Positions 104-28,039 of a stretch of DNA of 32,767 nucleotides are shown piece by piece. The notes below the pieces were generated by a model that saw only the letters and a list, made by a program, of their open reading frames with translations, made no database searches and was not told the origin of the DNA. The stretch covers positions 1-32,767 of the forward strand of contig CAJOIP010000030.1 of the NCBI GenBank assembly GCA_905234785.1. Direction: 5' to 3'. The translations under genes and the position numbers were made by a program. The stretch comes from an uncultured Eggerthellaceae bacterium (GTDB taxonomy: Bacteria > Actinomycetota > Coriobacteriia > Coriobacteriales > Eggerthellaceae). The number at the start of each line of letters is the position of its first letter. Positions within the stretch are counted from its first letter, which is position 1.

Positions 104-1087
104 ATGGACTTCACTTCCAACAAGCGACCCGAGCATATGCAACGCATCACGACGCCCGAATTGGCCGATGCGTTCATAGAAGAAGCCGTCGAGGCCATGC
201 GCGCCCAAGTCGGCGACGGGAAGGTGCTGCTCGCGCTTTCCGGAGGCGTTGATTCTTCGGTTGTCGCTGCGCTGCTCATAAAGGCCATCGGCAAACAGCT
301 CGTATGCGTGCACGTGAACCACGGCCTCATGCGCAAGGGCGAATCCGAGCAAGTCATCGACGTGTTCAAAAACCAGATGGACGCGAACCTCGTCTTCGTC
401 GACGCGAGCGACCGTTTCCTCGACTTGCTCGCAGGCGTGGAAGACCCCGAGGCTAAGCGTCACGTCATTGGCGAAGAGTTCATCAAGGTGTTCGCCGAGG
501 AAGCAGCCAAGCTCGACGGCATCGGCTTCTTGGGCCAGGGAACCATCTATCCGGACATCCTCGAGTCCGAGGCGGGCGTGAAGGCCCATCATAACGTGGG
601 CGGCTTGCCGGAAGACCTCGACTTCGAGCTCGTCGAACCTGTGAAGCTGCTCTTCAAGGACGAGGTTCGCGTCGTCGGCAAGCAGCTTGGCCTGCCCGAC
701 AGCATGGTGTACCGCCAGCCGTTCCCGGGTCCAGGCCTGGGTGTCCGGTGCCTTGGCGCCATCACGCGTGACCGCCTGAACGCCTTGCGCGAAGCCGACG
801 CCATCGTGCGCGAGGAAATCGACGCGGCCGGCCTCGACATATGGCAGTACTTCTGCGTCGTCCCCGACATGCGCGCGACTGGCGTGCGCGACGGCATGCG
901 CGCCTACGAATGGCCGTGCATCATCCGCTGCATCAACACGGTCGACGTCATGACGGCGGAAGTGCCCGAACTTGACTGGGCGCTGCTGAAGAGGATTACG
1001 AACCGCATCCTCGCAGAAGTGCCTGGTATCTGCCGCGTGTGCTACGACTTGTCGCCCAAGCCCATCGGAACGGTCGAGTGGGAATAG
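104..1087 (+). CDS. guaA: GMP synthase, ATP-pyrophosphatase subunit (stand-alone GuaA C-terminal part)
   Basis: 327 aa. The protein adenylates XMP and transfers ammonia to give GMP, the last step of guanine nucleotide synthesis. The P-loop SGGVDSS lies near residue 46, and the C-terminal dimerisation part contains YRQPFPGPGLGVR and ends in TVEWE, as GMP synthases do. The usual N-terminal class I glutamine amidotransferase domain (about 190 residues) is absent. This is not a window-edge effect, because an in-frame ATG at 104 is preceded by TAGGAG at 93-98. The layout resembles the archaeal two-subunit enzyme (GuaAb), so a separate glutaminase subunit should be encoded elsewhere, or free ammonia is used. 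A small membrane-protein gene follows after 3 nt. Function is very secure; the split form is read directly from the sequence. Confidence 0.95.
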   Translation: MDFTSNKRPEHMQRITTPELADAFIEEAVEAMRAQVGDGKVLLALSGGVDSSVVAALLIKAIGKQLVCVHVNHGLMRKGESEQVIDVFKNQMDANLVFVDASDRFLDLLAGVEDPEAKRHVIGEEFIKVFAEEAAKLDGIGFLGQGTIYPDILESEAGVKAHHNVGGLPEDLDFELVEPVKLLFKDEVRVVGKQLGLPDSMVYRQPFPGPGLGVRCLGAITRDRLNALREADAIVREEIDAAGLDIWQYFCVVPDMRATGVRDGMRAYEWPCIIRCINTVDVMTAEVPELDWALLKRITNRILAEVPGICRVCYDLSPKPIGTVEWE

Positions 1088-23897: not shown

Positions 23898-24068
23898 ATG
23901 AGAAGGAAGAACCGCGAAGTTACGGAGCACTGCGGTTTCGAAGACGTGCCGCTCGACACCTGCCGGGGGCTCTCTGCCGTGCGCATCTACCGCATCACGC
24001 TCGACGACATCACGGGCAAGCGCAACTTGCCTGGCAGCGAATCAAAGGCATTCCAGGTTGTCTCATAG
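23898..24068 (+). pseudogene. internally deleted PNPOx-like (NimA/flavin-binding) gene, 56-codon remnant
   Basis: An open frame with ATG 23898, GGGAGG (23884-23889) and stop 24068. It begins MRRKNREVT, the typical start of stand-alone pyridoxamine-phosphate-oxidase-like flavin proteins, and later reads VRIYRITLDDITGKRN, resembling the C-terminal strand of the same family. The intervening roughly 100 residues are missing, so this looks like an in-frame deletion product. It is still translatable. A genuine small protein is the alternative. Confidence 0.55.
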
Positions 24069-24176
24069 CTTAGAATGGCTTCCTGAGGCTTAAGAAACCC
24101 CTCTGCAAAGCGCGTCTCAGCAGAGGGGTTTAGCATGTTTAGCTGGGCAAATGTGCCTTTCTGTCACTCCCACTCT
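24067..24176 (+). repeat. repeat module copy 1 (with terminator)
   Basis: AGCTTAGAA (24067-24075), 13 nt, CTTAAG (24089-24094), then a CCCC-arm hairpin, then GTTTAG..GGG..AAATGTGC (to 24156) and GTCACTCCCACTCT (24163-24176). The same order and the same 13-nt gap occur at 27919 and 32656. It begins on the stop codon of the preceding remnant gene. Confidence 0.75.
24095..24131 (+). terminator. terminator hairpin in repeat copy 1
   Basis: A 12-bp perfect stem 24095-24106/24120-24131 (AAACCCCTCTGC and its complement) with a 13-nt loop, ending in TTT. Confidence 0.85.
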
Positions 24177-24590
24177 ATTGTTGCAAACCCCGAAAACCCG
24201 TCCGTCTCGTGCCATGTCGTCCGACTGGTGCAGTTTTGTGTTGCCAAGTCCGGGGAACAGGCTTCTCCGGGTGGTAGCCAGTTGGTAGCCAGTAGGTGGC
24301 TACCAAGGTGGTAGCCAGCATAGGGGAATAAATGCCCTCGGTTAGGGGAAAAATCCATCTACCTGCGGAAACGTCTAGTAGCCAGTTCTCTTTTTCGTCA
24401 AAGTGGCTACCACCCTCGAAAACGCCCTCGAAAGCCTTCTTTTGACCGAGTGAGGGGAATAAAAGATTTCTGTACAGGGAATTAACCAACCGACCTGCGG
24501 AAACATCGATTCTCGATTCTCCCACGAAGGTCCAGTGGCTACCAGGGACGCACTCGATAAAGGCCCTTCTTGGGGGCGTTCCGAGTTGCA
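24177..24590. repeat. noncoding 132-bp degenerate tandem duplication with TGGTAGCCA/TGGCTACCA repeats
   Basis: No gene is supported here. TGGTAGCCA occurs near 24272, 24283 and 24309, and its complement TGGCTACCA near 24297, 24404 and 24536. Landmarks recur with a 131-132 bp period: GGGGAATAAA at 24323 and 24454, CCTGCGGAAAC at 24362 and 24494, AGTGGCTACCA at 24402 and 24534. The clustered complements allow several hairpins. A minus-strand open frame across it only repeats a DVSAGR peptide and has no ribosome binding site. Confidence 0.75.
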
Positions 24591-25376
24591 TCAGATTCCG
24601 AGCAGCTCGCGGTAGATGTGTTCGTCTTCACCGACGAACACATTGAACACGACGGTCATATCCAAGTCGTTCTCATTGAGCCACTTGCGTACGGTGTTCA
24701 CGGCGAGTTCCGCAGCCTTCTTCTGTGGGAACCCGAAGACGCCCGTGCTGATGCAGCAAAATGCGATAGAGGCAAGGCCGTTCTCGGCGGCGAGGTCGAG
24801 GCAGCTGCGGTAACACGACGCCAGCTGCTTGTGATGCAGGTCGGTCGGCTCTCCGTTCGCAATGGGCCCGACCGTGTGGATGACATGCTTAGACGGCAGA
24901 TTGTATGCAGGCGTGATCTTGGCCATTCCCGTCGGCTCCTCGTAGCCCTGCGCCTCCATGATGCGGGCGCACTCGATGCGCAGCTGGACGCCGGTGAATG
25001 TGTGGATGGCGTTGTCGATGCAATGGTGGCTTGGCACCCAGCAGCCGAGCATCTGGCTGTTCGCGGCGTTGACGATGGCGTCCACCGCAAGCGTGGTGAT
25101 GTCGCCGCGCCACAGGTGCAGGCGCGGGTCGTAGGTCGAGGGGGCCGCGTCATCCACCGAGCTCACACCCGCCTCGGCGATCATGCCCTGCAGCAGCTCG
25201 TCCTGCATCGCGAGCCACTCGTCGCTTGCCGAGATTGGCGGACGCGTGTTCACGAGCGCACGGAAGGCGGTCCAGAGTTCGTCGACGTCTTCTGCCCTCG
25301 GCAGCTCGAAGCCGCGCTCGGCGCAAAGACCGGCCACAAGGCCCTTCAGCAGCTCTCGCTTGCGGGCGTTATCCAT
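24591..25376 (-). CDS. zinc-dependent macrodomain ADP-ribosyl hydrolase
   Basis: 261 aa. The macrodomain spans about residues 85-255: WRGDITTLAVDAIVNAANSQ near 90, then the Zn-macro signature GCWVPSHHCIDNAIH with Cys/His ligands, and CISTGVFGFP as the phosphate-binding loop. An N-terminal helical extension is typical of the type linked to SirTM sirtuins. It removes ADP-ribose added by the partner sirtuin. ATG 25376 has GGGAGG upstream and overlaps the SirTM stop by 8 nt, so the two are co-translated. Confidence 0.93.
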   Translation of the reverse strand: MDNARKRELLKGLVAGLCAERGFELPRAEDVDELWTAFRALVNTRPPISASDEWLAMQDELLQGMIAEAGVSSVDDAAPSTYDPRLHLWRGDITTLAVDAIVNAANSQMLGCWVPSHHCIDNAIHTFTGVQLRIECARIMEAQGYEEPTGMAKITPAYNLPSKHVIHTVGPIANGEPTDLHHKQLASCYRSCLDLAAENGLASIAFCCISTGVFGFPQKKAAELAVNTVRKWLNENDLDMTVVFNVFVGEDEHIYRELLGI

Positions 25377-26229
25377 CTTGCCCTCCCAGCAGATCATCTA
25401 AAACTTGGTCGATGTCGGCGTCGATCAGGATCGAACGGTCGCGGATGTCGGGGTGCGTGTACGCCTCGCCGTAATTCACGCAGACGTACGTGGCATCCGG
25501 GTTTGCGTACGTGCGGCGCCAGAACGGGTACTTGATGATGACGGGCGTGTTCGCACCCACGCCGAGCTCCAGGTAGAGCACCTTGCCCATCTGGTGCATT
25601 TCGAGGAAATCGCGGTAGCGTCCAGCCGCTGCGTGCCATCCCTCGTCCTCGACGAACGTGTCGTCGGCGCGCAAATTCATGGCCATAGGCTTGCCGCATA
25701 CGGGGCAATATGGCACGAGCTCGGATGGCACGCGCATGCCGTGCCGTTCCTCAATCATGCGCTTCACGGTCTCGTAGTTGTCGTAGGTCTTGTCGTGGCA
25801 CGGCACGCTGCACTGCCAGAGGCCGTAATCGCCCTGCGTGTAGTACAGCCGCTCCTTGGGGAAGCCCGTACACTGGAACTGGTGGTCGACGTTCGTGGTT
25901 AAGACGAAGAAGTCTTTGCCCTGCACGAGCCGCAGCAGCTTGGCGTACGTATCTTTCGGCGGTTCGACGTAGCGGTTGTACCAGATGTGGCGGCTCCAGT
26001 AGGCCCATTGCTCTTCGAGCGTCTGGAACGGGAAAAACCCAGCAGAGTACATGTCGCGGAAGCGGTACTTGGCGATGAAGTCGCCGAAGTAGCGCTCGAA
26101 CCGATCTCCGGAGTACGTGAGCCCGGCGGCGGTGGAGAGCCCCGCGCCTGCGCCGACCACGATGGCGTCGGCGGCATCGATCGCATCGCGGAGCTCGGCG
26201 ATCGACTGCTCGTAATCCTTCTTTTTCAT
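25369..26229 (-). CDS. class M sirtuin (SirTM), protein ADP-ribosyltransferase
   Basis: 286 aa. The NAD-binding motif GAGAGLSTAAGLTYSG is at residues 26-41, TTNVDHQF at 111-118 corresponds to TQNID, and zinc cysteines are 140, 144, 175 and 178. The position of the canonical catalytic His reads Gln132 (YTQGDYG), as known for SirTM proteins that ADP-ribosylate rather than deacetylate. AGGAG precedes the ATG. In staphylococci and streptococci the partners include GcvH-L and a lipoate ligase; neither is adjacent here, only the macrodomain. Confidence 0.93.
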   Translation of the reverse strand: MKKKDYEQSIAELRDAIDAADAIVVGAGAGLSTAAGLTYSGDRFERYFGDFIAKYRFRDMYSAGFFPFQTLEEQWAYWSRHIWYNRYVEPPKDTYAKLLRLVQGKDFFVLTTNVDHQFQCTGFPKERLYYTQGDYGLWQCSVPCHDKTYDNYETVKRMIEERHGMRVPSELVPYCPVCGKPMAMNLRADDTFVEDEGWHAAAGRYRDFLEMHQMGKVLYLELGVGANTPVIIKYPFWRRTYANPDATYVCVNYGEAYTHPDIRDRSILIDADIDQVLDDLLGGQDG

Positions 26230-26239
26230 ATCGCGGCTC

Positions 26240-26684
26240 CTATCGCTTCACGATCGCCTGCACAGGGCATGCCTCCTGGCTACAGTAGGTTCATAGAGGG
26301 GTTCATCTCGAAGAGAGCATCGACAAGCGCGTGCTGTACGGCTTCTCCCTCGGGGTGCGCGACTCTGCCGCGCAGGCGGCATGTGCGATAGTCGGACGTC
26401 TGGCCGACGAGGGCCACGAACTGCTCGCGCATGACTTCGGCGTGAAATTCCTTGCCGCGTGGCGCAAGGAAATACAGACGCTTGTCGGTCACGGCCATCA
26501 CGTCGATGATGCGCACGCTGGGCAGCCCGTCGGCATCCACGGTAGCGAATGCGACGTCGCGGATGGCCCGAAGGAACCGCAGGCACCATGCTGCGTCGAC
26601 CTCGCCGGATTCGGGTATCGCCGCCAGGTCGAGGCTCTCACCCTTCCCGAACGCCGCGATGTCGCTATCAACGCAGTAGGTCAT
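26240..26684 (-). pseudogene. broken PNPOx-like flavin protein with ferredoxin tail
   Basis: The intact frame from ATG 26684 runs 134 codons to 26280: CLRFLRAIRDVAFATVDADGLPSVRIIDVM, a split-barrel pyridoxamine-phosphate-oxidase-like domain, up to FEMNPSMNLL and a stop. Directly after, in another frame (about 26280-26240), comes CSQEACPVQAIVKR and a stop, which looks like the end of a 4Fe-4S ferredoxin domain. The segment between (end of the barrel and most cluster cysteines) appears deleted with a frame change. It lies 10 nt upstream of sirTM in the same direction. The truncated barrel may still fold. Confidence 0.7.
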
Positions 26685-26708
26685 GCCCGCATCCCTTCCG
26701 TCCATGCC

Positions 26709-26738
26709 GCATCGGGGGCATCGTGCAGCCCCCGATGC
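26709..26738. terminator. hairpin between the NAD(P)-binding gene and the PNPOx remnant
   Basis: An 11-bp perfect stem 26709-26719/26728-26738 (GCATCGGGGGC and its complement) with an 8-nt loop. It lies 24 nt downstream of the NAD(P)-binding gene stop on the minus strand; there is no U tract. Confidence 0.6.
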
Positions 26739-26761
26739 AGACTTACCTTCTTGCCGCTATT

Positions 26762-27394
26762 CTACTTGCGCACGGTGCTGATGCGCTGCTGCACGTGATC
26801 TCCGGACTCGATCTCGTCGACCATGGCGATGGCGTAGTCGGCGTAGCTGATGACCGACTCGCCGGCCGCGTTGAGCGTCAGCTCCTCGCCGCCCAGGATG
26901 TAGGAGCCGGTGCGCTCGCCGTCTGCCTGGAAGTCGCCCGCAGGGGAGATGTAGGTCCACTTGACGTCGCCGCGCCCGCGCAGCTCGCCGAGGGCCTTGG
27001 CCATGGCGGCCGCCAGCGGCTTGAAGGCCTCGGGGAAGTCTGGCGTGTCGGAGACGGTCATGGTGTGCTCGGGGCTGACGTAGAGCGAGCCCGCGCCGCC
27101 CACGACGAGCAGCCGCGTTTCGGTGCCCGCGAGGCAGTCGCAGAGGTGCGCGAGGGTCGCGGAGTGCTGGTCAAGCGTCTCGGGAGTCCAGGTGCCGAAG
27201 GCGTCGATGACCGCGTCGAAGCCCGCGAGATCGGTAGCCTCGATGTCCATGATGTCCTTGACGACGACCTTCTCGGCTGCGGTCCTGTTCTCGCCGCGCA
27301 CGAATGCGGTGACGTCCATGCCGCGCGAGATGGCCTCCTTGACGATGAGCTGGCCGGCCTTGCCGTTGGCTGCGACGACTGCAATCTTCTTCAT
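26762..27394 (-). CDS. NAD(P)-binding oxidoreductase, NmrA/atypical SDR type
   Basis: 210 aa. An N-terminal Rossmann motif AANGKAGQLIVKEAI (residues 8-22) replaces GxxGxxG with AxxGxxG. The rest (DAVIDAFGTWTPE, LLVVGGAGSLY, WTYISPAGDF) is typical of NAD(P)H-binding quinone-reductase-like atypical SDRs. ATG 27394 is preceded by AAAGGA; earlier codons lack a site. It is divergent from an HxlR regulator, the usual arrangement for electrophile or quinone-responsive pairs. Substrate unknown. Confidence 0.88.
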   Translation of the reverse strand: MKKIAVVAANGKAGQLIVKEAISRGMDVTAFVRGENRTAAEKVVVKDIMDIEATDLAGFDAVIDAFGTWTPETLDQHSATLAHLCDCLAGTETRLLVVGGAGSLYVSPEHTMTVSDTPDFPEAFKPLAAAMAKALGELRGRGDVKWTYISPAGDFQADGERTGSYILGGEELTLNAAGESVISYADYAIAMVDEIESGDHVQQRISTVRK

Positions 27395-27563
27395 GGTGGT
27401 GTCCTTTCTGTCGTGGCGACTGCCTGACTGCCGCCTTGCCTTTCCATGACACAAACTGTATGCTCTTCGGTACCAATATGGAAGTAGGCACTATACTGTG
27501 CTATAGGCACCAAATGGTAACCATTGGCGGTTACCTGCTTAAAAATTTTGAGGTGAATCGAAA
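27395..27563. promoter_or_regulatory. divergent control region with HxlR operator-like repeats
   Basis: AATGGT-a-ACCATT (27513-27525) is a perfect odd palindrome, GGTAAC and GTTACC recur around it, GCAC-tatact-GTGC is centred near 27495, and TAGGCAC is repeated at 27485 and 27503. A TTCCAT..TACAGT pair with 17-nt spacing may be the minus-strand promoter. One of these palindromes is probably the HxlR site. Confidence 0.45.
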
Positions 27564-27914
27564 ATGGCGGAACCGAGGCTTGAGGACCTGCCAGCATGCC
27601 CGGTGGAGACTACGCTCATGCTCATAGGAAACAAGTGGCAAGTGCTGATACTTCGCGACCTGAACCTGAACGGCACCTTGCGGTTCAAGGAGCTGCAACG
27701 CTCCATCGGCAAGATCTCGCAGAAGGTGCTGACATCCAACCTGAGGGCCATGGAGGAGTCGGGCATCGTGCATAGGGAGGTGTTCGCAGAGGTACCCCCG
27801 CGCGTGGAGTACTCGCTGACCGAGCTTGGCGAAACGCTGCAGCCGGTGCTCGACGCGATGTGGGCGTGGGGCGAGAACTACAAGGAGCGATTTCGCAAGG
27901 TGCGCTCGTCGTAG
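27564..27914 (+). CDS. HxlR-family transcriptional regulator
   Basis: 116 aa winged-helix regulator. Family motifs are CPVETTLMLIGNKWQVLILRDL (Cys12, the usual redox or electrophile sensor position), LRFKELQRSIGKISQKVLTSNLRAMEESGIV and VEYSLTELG. Divergent from the NAD(P)-binding oxidoreductase, which it most likely controls. Ends just before repeat module copy 2. Confidence 0.93.
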   Translation: MAEPRLEDLPACPVETTLMLIGNKWQVLILRDLNLNGTLRFKELQRSIGKISQKVLTSNLRAMEESGIVHREVFAEVPPRVEYSLTELGETLQPVLDAMWAWGENYKERFRKVRSS

Positions 27915-27918
27915 CGAC

Positions 27919-28039
27919 AGCTTAGAAAGGCTTATGCGGGCTTAAGGGTAGCCCCTCGGCAACATGTTTGCTGGCGAGGGGCTATCGTGTTTAATTGGGA
28001 AAATGTGCGCTTACGGCAGCCTTTTGTCACTCCCACTCT
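27919..28039 (+). repeat. repeat module copy 2 (with terminator)
   Basis: AGCTTAGAA (27919-27927), 13 nt, CTTAAG (27941-27946), a hairpin 27949-27984, GTTTAATTGGGAAAATGTGC (to 28008) and GTCACTCCCACTCT (28026-28039). The last 14-mer is identical to copy 1. It starts 4 nt after the hxlR stop. Confidence 0.75.
27949..27984 (+). terminator. terminator hairpin after hxlR (repeat copy 2)
   Basis: A 10-bp perfect stem 27949-27958/27975-27984 (TAGCCCCTCG and its complement). Confidence 0.8.

Follow-up and report, generated by a model that had tools for sequence, protein, structure and literature searches.

A 9-mer array beside a guaA-derived repeat at the end of a small cassette in Eggerthellaceae: a probable integrase arm-site region

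The contig of an uncultured Eggerthellaceae bacterium analysed here (CAJOIP010000030.1, positions 1 to 32,767; hereafter the window) holds a dense cluster of short repeats in both orientations next to genes for a macrodomain protein and a SirTM-like sirtuin, and the question it raises is what such a cluster is for. Exact 9-mers TGGTAGCCA/TGGCTACCA occur six times within 273 bp (24272-24544), at 24272(+), 24283(+), 24297(-), 24309(+), 24404(-) and 24536(-), and a one-mismatch copy of TGGTAGCCA lies at 24376(+), which bears out the original prediction of at least six 9-mers in both orientations. Where 3.69 occurrences of TGGTAGCCA with up to one mismatch would be expected in the window, there are 10, a number reached in none of 100 shuffles, and in 60 dinucleotide shuffles the maximum was four copies of any 9-mer per 300 bp, compared with six in the array. 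The degenerate 132-bp duplication that had been predicted is also present: 24344-24375 and 24476-24507 are 75% identical at a spacing of 132 bp, AGTGGCTACCA is found at 24402 and 24534, and copies of GGGGAATAAA lie 131 bp apart. The array had been placed between a repeat module and the SirTM-macrodomain genes, which is correct along the plus strand; these genes are read from the minus strand, however, and the array is therefore downstream of their 3′ end.

About 105 bp past the start of the last 9-mer, the minus strand reads ATA-GAG-TGG-GAG-TGA, that is IEWE-stop, the C-terminus of the GMP synthase GuaA. A second, directly oriented copy of the 12-mer GAGTGGGAGTGA lies at 28027, so that a cassette is delimited by direct repeats of the guaA 3′ end, one at 24164 and one at 28027 (Table 1). 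After each core there is a second conserved motif, a CATTTCCCCAGCTAA-like box with a hairpin, and TAAGCC repeats are clear at 28027. What had been called copy 1 of a repeat module belongs to the neighbouring unit, as its conserved left end (24065-24175), and there is a second copy at about 27915-28038. The SirTM-like gene gave no match to Pfam, and no tRNA target was found in the window.

Table 1. Features of the cassette and its surroundings (window coordinates).
Feature	Position	Strand	Basis or remark
Whole cassette (core, left end, cargo, array, core), 3,875 bp	24164..28038	-	bounded by two direct GAGTGGGAGTGA copies
Core direct repeat, right boundary (guaA 3′ end, IEWE-stop)	24164..24175	-	homology of the neighbouring unit with G001 ends here
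Core direct repeat, left boundary	28027..28038	-	direct GAGTGGGAGTGA copy
Cassette left end: CATTTTCCCAATTAA box, hairpin, TAAGCC repeats	27915..28026	-	alignment
Left end of next unit (predicted repeat module copy 1)	24065..24163	-	sequence comparison
Spacer, array to core	24176..24263	-	alignment; the window has a variant type in common with G290:C157
Array, candidate arm-type 9-mers in two 131-132 bp units	24266..24545	-	core distances same in relatives
Putative accessory boxes, proximal unit: GGGGAATAAA, GGGGAAAAAT, ACCTGCGGAAAC	24323..24373	+	conserved in 16 aligned right ends and in the families with other 9-mers
Putative accessory boxes, distal unit: GGGGAATAAA, ACCTGCGGAAAC	24454..24505	+	alignment of right ends
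Macrodomain protein, protein-ADP-ribose hydrolase NF003163 (cargo)	24591..25397	-	NCBIfam
SirTM-like sirtuin (cargo)	25369..26229	-	name from the original prediction; NF001753 deacylase weak, E 7e-5, below cut-off
HxlR-type regulator (cargo)	27564..27914	+	profile match

The true guaA of the source genome is on contig C18 (6637-8205, minus strand) and ends in the core; the contig of the window (C30) is not joined to it in the assembly. On C18 a 6.5-kb element sits directly on guaA, bounded by cores at C18:6634 and C18:88, and its far end consists of a second array copy and a core. In two further genomes, G012 and G009, array elements begin at guaA itself, and in G347 and G111 they stand in tandem downstream of it. 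The complete, single-contig chromosome of G347 has a direct series of cores at guaA (2152206), 2113731, 2109533 (the array core) and 2099835, and in G111 other cores separate guaA from the array core, which is about 11 kb further downstream. A decayed array copy near 335,000 in G347 was left out of the tabulated copies. The window itself has a guaA-like gene at 104-1087 (+), of which the contig start includes only the C-terminal synthase part, ending in GTVEWE; considered as the target, it was rejected as a paralogue whose 3′ end is unoccupied. Separately, we observed in G004 (L246) the core of such a guaA paralogue followed by a TGGAACTCA element.

When the order was searched at the DNA level, 13 or 14 of 395 genomes proved to have the array, G041 counting by a 27-bp match alone, and it stands about 105 bp from a guaA-type core throughout. 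The pattern of 9-mer pairs was found in 15 of the 395, three of them unrelated: the TGGTAGCCA pairs in G203, G218 and G383 come without core or array and were rejected as family members. A scan of genome contigs gave 18 stretches, made up of 11 array members, two tRNA-integrase cases and five others; the stretches L022, L027, L032, L034 and L038 were dropped as unrelated. We aligned 16 TGGTAGCCA right ends, leaving out a near-identical copy in G289. In most of them the short sites keep fixed distances of -142/-130/-116/-105 from the core, and 10 of the 16 have the distal unit, two being cut by contig ends. Twelve elements, of 1.2-9.2 kb, are bounded by cores on both sides, and the left-end motif is clear in ten of these, weak in G058 and absent in G332. 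Conservation of the two ends (about 130 and 400 bp) extends over genera and families, and the cargo between them is wholly different. A second, CCCACGGAGTRGCACCGTTTAACTTCTCTTGGCATCGT-like type of left end follows the core in four genomes (L123 1-87, L015 ~12546, L097 ~1912 and L241 ~3173).

Besides SirTM/macro, the cargo of the various elements comprises an aldo-keto reductase accompanied by flavodoxins, DUF362 and a CMD/cupin protein; a phosphate-type set of binding protein, permease and ATPase genes, together with a histidine kinase, a PhoU-like protein and a PHO4 transporter; nitroreductases together with LysR; TetR together with HXXEE; AAA_14/DUF4143; and a hydrolase together with LysR. 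The Pfam scan covered 26 cargo ORFs, taken from elements other than those of G058, G347 and the second one on G009:C91, and among these 26 there were no transfer genes, transfer-gene relics or replication genes. The largest of the cassettes (L015 423-9602, G012:C31; 9.2 kb), directly at guaA, has a seemingly whole phosphate-uptake set. We also observed a core-bounded unit with Msr-like ABC-F and Mef-like efflux genes (L237, G009:C117, 2174-6938), whose NCBIfam matches to Msr and Mef are below the exception cut-offs and which scores above the cut-off for a ribosomal-protection-like ABC-F; hence resistance-type genes, too, occur in guaA islands.

None of the 12 bounded array elements had a true match to an integrase or an integrase remnant when searched by tblastn with a panel of 83 ORFs from integrase loci. 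Eleven elements gave no match at all, and the two matches in the phosphate cassette came via L040 and L130, which are the same G061/G290 locus; at L040, where the panel ORF was read, it encodes an ABC transporter instead of an integrase. The integrase family PF00589 was likewise missing from the array contigs of the searched genomes except in G347, where the integrase belongs to a neighbouring 38-kb element. The array element showed no homology to plasmids or phages, and viral contigs gave no array matches.

The unit adjoining the window cassette is 97-98% identical in G001, where it follows a right end of a sister family (family B, below), and the homology of this unit ends at the core. In G002 guaA is separated from a related left end by a 0.8-kb element bearing TGTACTCAC sites, and in G007 a related left end follows guaA directly. 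A cassette colinear with that of the window, at about 89% nucleotide identity, is found in G038, from another family of the order, whose best guaA match to the window genome is 53% at the amino acid level; that match may be a divergent paralogue, and the contrast is thus indicative but no clock. The window cassette is without about 249 bp present in the G038 copy, the junction (26276-26281) falling inside a Fer4/PNPOx-like (ferredoxin-like) gene.

The same islands contain right ends in which a different 9-mer takes the place of TGGTAGCCA (family A). In family B (seven right ends tabulated) it is replaced by TGGAACTCA, and in family C by TGTACTCAC, with six right ends tabulated, of which three have a full array, one a degenerate array and two none. 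The putative accessory boxes and the core are kept in both. Between families all copies of the 9-mer switch together. The proximal cluster, at -142/-130/-116/-105 from the core in A, is typically at -153/-142/-127/-116 in B and at about -166/-152/-141/-131 in C, where the second site has one mismatch; by our own reading the orientations are r-f-r-r in all three if the motifs are read in the equivalent direction. Family A has a repeat unit of 131-132 bp, family B one of about 110 bp. Further types of right end beside cores, with TGACGTCA-like and TGAGTACCA direct repeats (L102 ~2620 and 5349, L097 ~1913), suggest more than three families.

One member of family B associates such sites with an integrase gene. 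At guaA in G347 there is a 38.5-kb conjugative element that codes for a tyrosine integrase combining Arm-DNA-bind_4 and SAM domains, for a relaxase and for a T4SS coupling protein, and that also has type I restriction genes. The B 9-mer is present at both of its ends, unlike in the cassettes, in whose aligned left ends no TGGTAGCCA 9-mer was found. The integrase scores far below the curated cut-offs of integron-integrase models and has relatives in 95 of the 395 genomes; among 30 loci of its clade that we fetched, 25 have the core and 21 a guaA C-terminus with the core. Neither the 395 genomes of the order nor the viral contigs yielded an integrase accompanied by TGGTAGCCA sites. A 485-aa integrase near a left end on G009:C117 was considered as the cognate enzyme and rejected, as that contig has no TGGTAGCCA site. 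Outside the order, Roseomonas and Roseococcus (alphaproteobacteria) have TGGTAGCC(A/G) repeats that separate a tRNA gene from the beginning of an Arm-DNA-bind_3 integrase; the setting is as expected and gives an independent hint, which may also reflect convergence.

Arm-type sites beside a core att site are the anatomy of lambda- and Tn916-type integrases. Judged from the sequence, the array is very probably the arm-type binding region of a tyrosine integrase att site, forming the right end of a small cassette. Of the predicted functions it is thus the recombinase site array that is well supported, on account of the linkage to a directly repeated guaA-3′-end core about 105 bp away and of the sister 9-mer family in an integrase-bearing element. 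The window unit itself is probably an integrase-less cassette stacked at guaA and mobilised in trans. We propose that the cassette would integrate site-specifically at the 3′ end of guaA, or at a resident element's copy of that end, so that cassettes would stack head to tail at successive guaA-end copies. An integrase would link the TGGTAGCCA arm sites with the guaA-like core, and the other boxes, repeated as GGGGA(A/G)TAAA and CCTGCGGAAAC, would be accessory sites, presumably bound by a directionality or host factor. Having no integrase of its own, the cassette would move in trans or together with a neighbour; whether it is still mobile we consider evenly balanced.

A strict CIME is an alternative: the array would then be a dead relic, the leftover att half-site of a decayed integrative element able to move only in cis with a neighbour, and we give this reading a little less than an even chance. 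That no integrase remnant is left in any of the 12 bounded elements, that no helper integrase is seen among the genomes of the order, and that the left ends are without the 9-mer all fit such a relic, and decay and accretion of this kind are described in the sections of a review that deal with CIMEs (PMC5704250). Decay of separate ICEs would not, however, readily give ends conserved across genera and families around wholly different cargo, a compact cassette common to two families at about 89% nucleotide identity, or cargo in which the 26 scanned ORFs include no transfer-gene relic. Ends that stay conserved around differing cargo would favour a maintained cassette type over one-off ICE or IME decay.

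A binding array for a regulator of the neighbouring operon, or an iteron-like array for replication, is very unlikely: short sites do recur at regular spacing next to the SirTM/macro genes, but the array is on the 3′ side of these genes, adjoins unrelated cargo in other elements, and has no replication gene in the scanned cargo, which leaves the predicted iteron array unsupported. The structured RNA also predicted, whether riboswitch-like or a small RNA formed from the inverted repeats, is extremely unlikely. Both strands of the array fold more strongly than shuffled sequence does (z -2.6 and -2.4, matched by 4 of 200 shuffles), but this modest excess is as much as inverted repeats would give, the array has no match in Rfam, its position is not tied to one gene, and its 9-mers are direct as well as inverted, keep a fixed spacing to the guaA core and switch together between families. 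A decayed coding gene has a negligible chance, for although a 138-aa ORF (24175-24591, minus) overlaps the array, it has no Pfam match, none of the six frames is stop-free in all 16 copies of the proximal segment, and conservation tracks the 9-mers and boxes. An ACG-repeat ladder between array and core was dropped as irregular among copies.

Several parts of this picture are known: ICEs at the guaA 3′ end, CIMEs and accretion, and tandem ssrA islands (PMC4701971, PMC4844618, PMC5704250, PMC3146451, as far as the relevant parts of these sources go). CIMEs are outlined in the review as elements without integration or transfer genes that keep attL and attR and form tandems where a target gene has its 3′ end (PMC5704250). 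Array cassettes share this trait, in that attL and attR (cores and ends) are kept and no integrase and, among the 26 scanned ORFs, no transfer gene was detected, as well as the tandem arrangement; they are unlike the CIMEs of those sections in that conserved ends (about 130 and 400 bp) are common to several families, in which the cargo is wholly different and the 9-mers are substituted, which suggests a maintained cassette type and not one-off decay. Tn5801-like and other ICEs and IMEs sit in the guaA 3′ end, the repeats of Tn5801 being 11 bp (PMC4844618, PMC4701971; list in PMC5704250). They resemble the cassettes in target, in direct repeats of the guaA 3′ end and in the tyrosine integrase, which for the cassettes is a proposed one, and according to these accounts carry their own integrase and, in the ICEs, transfer genes, unlike the window element. 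Multiple islands in tandem behind one gene with 3′-end direct repeats are also reported at ssrA in Dehalococcoides, where 16 of 31 islands have an integration module; these differ in a serine recombinase module and the ssrA target, and the parts of that paper on the islands describe no array with swapped 9-mers (PMC3146451). We regard the array-bearing unit as a variant of CIME-like accretion islands. Searches of the open-access literature on guaA with Eggerthella or Coriobacteri- brought up no description of such cassettes.

Collectively our data show core repeats, linkage to guaA, conserved ends and variable cargo directly, as well as the lack of a detectable integrase and sister families with substituted 9-mers, one of them in an integrase-bearing element. 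The attachment-site reading is strong; to be set against it are that no integrase with TGGTAGCCA sites was seen in the searched genomes and viral contigs, that the left ends are without the 9-mer, that C30 is not joined to guaA, that the paralogue at 104-1087 is unoccupied and that the guaA match in G038 may be a paralogue. The original prediction was right in part: it overlooked the core repeat, the other end of the element at 28027 and the connection to guaA, and of the outcomes it had named as contrary to its view, an insertion element or a decayed gene, the unit is indeed part of a mobile element, which is not a known insertion sequence, and the decayed gene is not supported.

Integron cassettes lack an integrase, stand in series and are moved by a tyrosine recombinase. 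Cassettes of the window type differ in being multi-gene, with their own regulators, and in being anchored at guaA instead of attI. We tentatively put forward, as a possibility that we consider somewhat improbable, that Coriobacteriia have a guaA-anchored cassette system of integrase-less multi-gene families with shared ends and arm-site layout but different 9-mer ‘addresses’, each recognised in trans through the arm domain of a matching guaA integrase on a separate conjugative element, which would amount to an integron-like store of adaptive genes with selectable address codes. If the attachment-site reading is right, SirTM/macro, phosphate-uptake, flavodoxin, nitroreductase and further genes of gut Coriobacteriia would ride on small site-specific cassettes behind guaA, a hotspot for which any genome of the group could be screened. 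The substituted 9-mers at constant layout would make the arm-site specificity of tyrosine integrases, and the mobilisation in trans of integrase-less elements, directly testable.
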